Shown here piece after piece: positions 34,522-34,956 of a DNA stretch of 64,000 nucleotides. The DNA is taken from NCBI GenBank assembly GCA_023382715.1, contig JAHDWP010000015.1, forward strand, positions 1-64,000, given 5' to 3'. How positions within the stretch are numbered: the stretch's first letter is position 1; every line of letters starts with the position of its first letter. The translations under genes were made by a program, and so were the position numbers. Below the pieces are notes generated by a model. It saw nothing but the letters and a program-made list of their open reading frames with translations. It was not told the DNA's origin and did no database searches. The DNA comes from Anaerolineae bacterium (GTDB lineage: Bacteria; Chloroflexota; Anaerolineae; Aggregatilineales; Aggregatilineaceae).

Positions 34522-34956
34522 CTACTCCCCGGCCAGCTCGCTCACTGCCGCGCGAAAACGCCCGGCATCGGGCATTCCTGTCTCGCGCAGCACGACGCGC
34601 CCCGCGCCGTCGAAGAGCAGTGTCGTGGGCACCATTTTCACGTCATAGGCGCGCGCCGCCTCGCGCCCGACCCCGCTCAGCAGGTCGAGCCGCAGGACTG
34701 TCGCCCGCCCTCTTACATCCCGCTCCAACCCATCCACGATGGGCTTAGTCAGCGTGCAGGCCGTTCAAAGGTTCGAGTACCACTCGACGATAGTCGGCTT
34801 GCCGCCCGTCAGGCGGGCCTGCAGATCGTCCATCGTCTTGACATCGCTCGGCCTGATGTACCACACGATATGGATCAGCACGAAGCCCGCCAGCGCAACG
34901 ACGGCCAGGCCGGTCAGCCCGGTCTTGAGCAGGGACAGACTCGCTGCCAGGGGCAT
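34522..34956 (-). CDS. Membrane-anchored thioredoxin-fold selenoprotein (UGA as Sec64)
   Basis: The frame opens at ATG 34956, gives one N-terminal membrane helix (about 12-33), then KPTIVEWYSNL, an in-frame TGA at 34767-34765, and continues without interruption as TACTLTKPIVDGLERD to TAA or TGA-type termination at 34522. Reading the TGA as selenocysteine yields 144 residues with a UxxC active site (Sec64, Cys67), exactly where thioredoxins have CxxC, and an intact cis-Pro strand (VKMVPTTLLFDG). A bacterial SECIS-like hairpin follows at the right distance. The likely role is extracytoplasmic thiol-disulfide exchange. The alternative is a Cys-to-stop mutant, but precise placement and the intact downstream frame argue against it. 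Confidence 0.75.
34727..34745 (-). promoter_or_regulatory. SECIS-like hairpin downstream of the in-frame UGA
   Basis: AGCCCAT and ATGGGTT form a 7-bp stem (one G-U pair) around the loop CGUGG. The loop G-U is 28-29 bases after the UGA, and the loop has G among its first two bases. This fits the known bacterial SECIS rules for SelB recruitment. Confidence 0.6.

Follow-up and report, generated by a model that had tools for sequence, protein, structure and literature searches.

The window, a stretch of 64,000 nucleotides from an Anaerolineae bacterium, carried a short thioredoxin-like gene interrupted by an in-frame TGA (Table 1). The preliminary description had given its coordinates correctly and omitted the strand, which was minus. 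With TGA read as selenocysteine (U), the translation (MPLAASLSLLKTGLTGLAVVALAGFVLIHIVWYIRPSDVKTMDDLQARLTGGKPTIVEWYSNLUTACTLTKPIVDGLERDVRG...DVKMVPTTLLFDGAGRVVLRETGMPDAGRFRAAVSELAGE) comprised 144 amino acids. The single TGA fell within YSNLUTAC, at the first cysteine of the CxxC site, and the frame remained open through MVPTTLLFD to the thioredoxin end, both as described earlier. In the table-11 ORF list, the gene appeared as two pieces, 34765-34956 (63 amino acids) and 34522-34737 (71 amino acids, GTG start), which is the split that had been anticipated for a standard gene caller. Since ordinary ORF calling cuts it in two, database records probably lack the gene or show it truncated. It stood alone: a threonine synthase-like gene on the same strand lay upstream of it, and the dehydrogenase-like genes downstream were convergent.

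Table 1. Features of the thioredoxin-like gene and positions in the window.
Feature	Position	Strand	Remark
Predicted Sec-thioredoxin gene	34522..34956	minus	144 codons + TAG stop
Start ATG	34956-34954	minus	
N-terminal hydrophobic helix, residues 3-31, predicted membrane anchor	34864..34950	minus	Hydropathy and model helix 3-31
In-frame TGA, codon 64, proposed selenocysteine, first UxxC residue	34765..34767	minus	Same codon in 89/89 distinct Sec-type homologues
TGC, Cys67, resolving cysteine of UTAC	34756..34758	minus	Invariant in A1 + A2
SECIS hairpin core CCCAUC-GUG-GAUGGG	34729..34743	minus	Extends to 8 pairs, 34727-34745
Pro110, putative cis-proline in MVPTTL	34627..34629	minus	Invariant in A1 + A2; just before strand 111-115 (model)
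Stop TAG	34522-34524	minus	

Thioredoxin fold and membrane topology

The AlphaFold2 model, calculated with 45 family members, showed a complete thioredoxin fold with a pLDDT of 95. The helix of residues 3-31 was followed by the strand and helix order of thioredoxins, and residue 64 was located directly before helix 65-80. Best matches in Foldseek were thioredoxins and the C-terminal domain of DsbD, with target-normalised TM-scores of up to 0.83 to thioredoxins. The family profile matched thioredoxins of the PDB at 9e-17. With TGA read as Cys, the Pfam model Thioredoxin (PF00085) scored 28.9 bits against a cut-off of 23.5. Profile score and fold, with the putative cis-Pro110, placed the protein in the family PF00085 and upheld the thioredoxin fold proposed in the preliminary description.

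Based on the charge bias of the family, the thioredoxin domain is probably located outside the cytoplasmic membrane; the window protein itself was ambiguous, with 1 versus 2 K/R. The type with one transmembrane helix had on average 1.7 K/R before and 1.0 after the helix, favouring an inner N-terminus and an outer domain. In the QSPYU type with two transmembrane helices, the positive loop was located between the helices, again favouring an outer domain. The positive-inside signal was mild (42/70 versus 20). The QSPYU loci (L092-L124) had, in about 17 cases, a divergent EF-G-like gene on one side and, on the other, a methyltransferase together with a phosphatase-like gene.

An alternative for topology and electron donor is a Sec-thioredoxin tethered to the membrane, with its domain in the cytoplasm and served by TrxA/TrxR. 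Gene neighbourhoods of some relatives would fit: of 81 loci, 10 encoded an ordinary Cys-TrxA directly upstream, at 0.5-0.9 kb, and 13 had a TrxR or a pyridine-nucleotide flavoprotein reductase at a distance of up to about 5 kb. This arrangement is considered possible, though rather doubtful, as the charge bias predicts an outer domain in the one-helix and the two-helix subfamilies alike and the window gene was without TrxA/TrxR neighbours. In one of these 13 (L048, 62% identical) the TrxR-like flavoprotein lay directly upstream, and a protein disulfide oxidoreductase was present near the gene in 8 of 81 loci. The only DsbD/CcdA-type protein of the window's genome was a CcdA-TlpA fusion.

Selenocysteine machinery and the SECIS hairpin

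The genome comprised 3.88 Mb with 98.6% completeness, as a draft in 82 contigs. The genes selA (543 bits), selB (347 bits) and tRNA-Sec (selC, 68.5 bits) were mutually adjacent on contig C18, and ARAGORN also called the latter a tRNA-SeC. Further matches to the tRNA-Sec model had much lower scores and were taken as other long-arm tRNAs; ARAGORN was run at the C18 locus. The selD gene (L155; contig C4, 82168-83103) contained its own in-frame TGA in SSCAGUASK, and the formate dehydrogenase alpha gene fdhA (L190; contig C6, 46438-48447) contained one in DHCARLUHSS. Both are likely selenoproteins. Because selA, selB, tRNA-Sec and selD were present together with TGA codons in selD, fdhA and the thioredoxin gene, the host decodes Sec and has three or more likely selenoproteins. 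The machinery was implied by the preliminary description, which had named absence of selB or selC as contrary evidence; both were found.

A 7-bp hairpin with a CGUGG loop had been reported downstream of the TGA. It was present, as AGCCCAU-CGUGG-AUGGGUU, and is better viewed as six core pairs, CCCAUC/GAUGGG, that close a GUG loop. Counted from the T of the TGA, the 15 core bases (CCCATCGTGGATGGG) began at a distance of 24 bases, and the distance from UGA to the GUG loop was 27 nt. Published rules for bacterial SECIS elements comprise a loop of 3-9 nt with G in its first two positions, a stem of 4-16 bp, a UGA-loop spacing of 16-37 nt and an MFE <= -7.5 (PMC13188914). With a loop of 3 nt starting with G, a stem of 6-8 bp and this spacing, the hairpin lay within these limits, as had been proposed, and it was conserved in relatives. 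The 19-nt hairpin had a family mean MFE of -9.1 kcal/mol, and the first 54 nt from the UGA of the window gene had a folding energy of -17.5. By itself, the 81-nt region had an unremarkable folding energy (z -1.16), and it is therefore comparison that gives the hairpin its significance.

Of 89 distinct Sec genes, 80 retained the full set of six core pairs, versus 1 of 30 Cys thioredoxin genes, and the spacing from the TGA was fixed in relatives. The sequence pattern of the hairpin occurred once in the whole 3.88-Mb genome, at the TGA of the window gene. Among the 89 Sec genes, pair 27/35 was A-U in 50, G-C in 35 and other in 4 (Fisher 6e-20), and pair 26/36 was C-G in 65, U-A in 20, U-G in 3 and G-C in 1. 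The pairing links the first base of an Ile/Val codon to the synonymous third base of Asp (GAU/GAC), and the first base of a Gly/Arg codon to that of Pro (CCC/CCU). Phylogenetically independent comparisons, on a tree built with the paired residues masked, gave joint change in 6.6 of 8 (27/35) and 5.8 of 6 cases (26/36); opposite change was never observed. The aligned genes show compensatory changes in the predicted hairpin, several via synonymous codons. A two-helix relative (L044; G045 C166) had its TGA at SNY-U-VGC and a hairpin of other sequence, GCGCAC-CGUGC-GUGCGC.

Homologues and the reading of UGA64

In a search of 60 relatives, homologues with one TGA were detected in 16 species of the order including the window's own genome, with identities from 92% to about 38%. 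Base-level reading placed the TGA of the order homologues at the first Cys of CxxC. Genus g19 held stop-free homologues, with Cys at the site in the same reading. The class survey detected the family at E<=1e-15 in 129 of 396 genomes, the majority of which had one TGA, and members were also present in other classes of Chloroflexota. Nearest named relatives were Chloroflexota MAGs (Thermoflexus sp. isolate, Anaerolineales, Anaerolineae). The family was also carried by a few MAGs of Myxococcota, Planctomycetota and Acidobacteriota, which may be due to transfer or mis-binning. Base-level reading covered the fetched loci; further TGA members, and some stop-free ones such as those of nine family f55 genomes, come from the search listing. 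In the matched frames of fetched loci the site was U in 120 and C in 40, the latter including ordinary TrxA genes nearby, and the second Cys was kept. Because the pattern of the locus scan of relatives, KP[IV]VD[GRN], overlaps the SECIS, Sec forms were over-sampled there, and the Sec/Cys counts and the link to selA rest on pattern-free genome searches. Cys homologues were expected to carry Cys at position 64, and this was observed in the alignment for L022, L024, L025 and L027.

Within the class, selA was present in 50 of 55 TGA genomes versus 3 of 14 stop-free genomes, with a Fisher value of 7e-7 that is only nominal because related genomes are not independent. The five TGA genomes without selA were 67-78% complete. 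Two TGA genomes without full selB, G002 and G009, were both fragmented drafts with partial selA. In the tree, the Cys clade of g19 was nested within the Sec genes, which suggests a Sec-to-Cys reversal; its hairpin was broken. Anaerolineae CG2_30_57_67 (L119) had TGC at the Sec position and a perfect hairpin CCGGTC-GTG-GACCGG, likely a recent Sec-to-Cys reversal. Tandem pairs of Sec-thioredoxins were observed in another Chloroflexota class (L184, L185), with YUASS or YUAKS in the second copy, a Sec without resolving Cys. L188 (DTUGAS) resembled these second copies.

Translation of the TGA as Trp or another standard residue (table 4-like), or leaky read-through without selenium, is highly improbable: the other in-frame TGAs encountered in the genome sit at known Sec sites (SelD, FdhA), homologues have Cys and not Trp at the site, and the hairpin and selA co-occur with TGA. 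Even less credible is a sequencing or assembly error. The TGA is one base from TGC or TGT and the genome is a draft, but TGA, followed by the hairpin, occupied the same codon in genes of other species with 92%, 74% and 64% identity and in 89 distinct genes. Its presence in independent species therefore rules against a read error, and the TGC or TGT named in the preliminary description as contrary evidence was not borne out. Decay of a nonsense-mutated gene after loss of function, in which the TGA would truncate the protein at the active site, is just as implausible, as selection 3' of the TGA is purifying judged by dN of 0.019-0.074 versus dS of 0.24-0.78 among genus members, residues C67, K71, P72, D75 and P110 were invariant (A1 + A2), and the TGA form persists across a class.

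The in-frame UGA aligned with the Cys of homologues, the downstream frame was conserved, and the host possessed selA, selB, selC and selD, as is characteristic of bacterial selenoproteins. Dozens of related bacteria carry this gene with its stop codon and RNA signal, so it is genuine. Based on machinery, SECIS and conservation, it most probably encodes a thioredoxin with UGA64 read as selenocysteine, with a probability of about 0.96. During translation, SelB carrying Sec-tRNA(Sec) would bind the hairpin located 27 nt downstream of UGA64, and selenocysteine would be inserted in place of termination. The product would be a membrane-anchored thioredoxin-fold oxidoreductase with the active site Sec64-Thr-Ala-Cys67. 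By analogy with other UxxC thioredoxins, the Sec64 selenolate would attack disulfide or sulfenic substrates and Cys67 would resolve the Se-S bond. Candidate electron donors are the CcdA-TlpA fusion protein of the genome, or a flavoprotein reductase/thioredoxin pair as encoded beside the gene in some relatives. Topology and electron donor are far less certain than the reading as a Sec-thioredoxin.

Relation to known selenoproteins

The catalysis of a Sec-containing thioredoxin has reportedly been studied by Kim et al. in 2015, as cited in PMC9312934. Sec-containing thioredoxin (Trx, PF00085, UxxC) is listed as an experimentally verified selenoprotein (PMC13188914). The window protein resembles it in the thioredoxin fold, the proposed Sec in place of the first CxxC cysteine and the resolving Cys, but is set apart by description through its N-terminal membrane helix and the UTAC site (family [YF]SNxUxxC). 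A thiol:disulfide interchange selenoprotein (PF13098, UxxC) is also catalogued (PMC13188914). It shares UxxC and the Trx fold, but the PF13098 match of the window protein, 25.5 bits, was below the Pfam cut-off of 27. ResA/TlpA and the DsbD C-terminal domain, the latter among the fold matches, are similar in combining an N-terminal anchor and a Trx domain. In contrast to these, the window protein carries the predicted Sec and scored far under the NCBIfam cut-offs for ResA (NF002854, 14.0 versus 170 bits) and DsbD (NF001419, 12.9 versus 330 bits). Canonical thioredoxin (TIGR01068) reached 38.5 versus 96.8 bits, with the motif NLUTAC and not W-C-G-P-C; this was the best NCBIfam score, and no NCBIfam model covered the window protein.

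Three selenoproteins were counted in Chloroflexi in 2006 (PMC1794560), and Chloroflexota are unmentioned in a 2026 selenoprotein review and catalogue (PMC13188914). The literature searched on selenoproteins or selenocysteine in Chloroflexota (Chloroflexi), Anaerolineae and Anaerolineales yielded nothing on the Sec-thioredoxin described here. As UxxC thioredoxins are already catalogued (PMC13188914), the kind is known, and the "new selenoprotein" of the preliminary description holds as a new subfamily or member of that kind. The novelty is a subfamily outside the NCBIfam models that is membrane-anchored, extends across Chloroflexota and has a near-invariant SECIS. The balance tips slightly towards a distinct, uncatalogued family of extracytoplasmic, membrane-anchored Sec-thioredoxins, common in Anaerolineae and other Chloroflexota, with a few representatives in Myxococcota, Planctomycetota and Acidobacteriota, and a SECIS kept near letter-for-letter by compensatory synonymous change. 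The Chloroflexota clade may well merit its own family.

The finding adds a widespread selenium-dependent redox protein, from a large and little documented family of selenium proteins, to an abundant and mostly uncultured phylum. One SECIS with fixed spacing exists in about 90 natural variants, which, together with the Sec-to-Cys reversals tied to the loss of selA, provide ready data on SECIS recognition and on the exchange of selenocysteine and cysteine.
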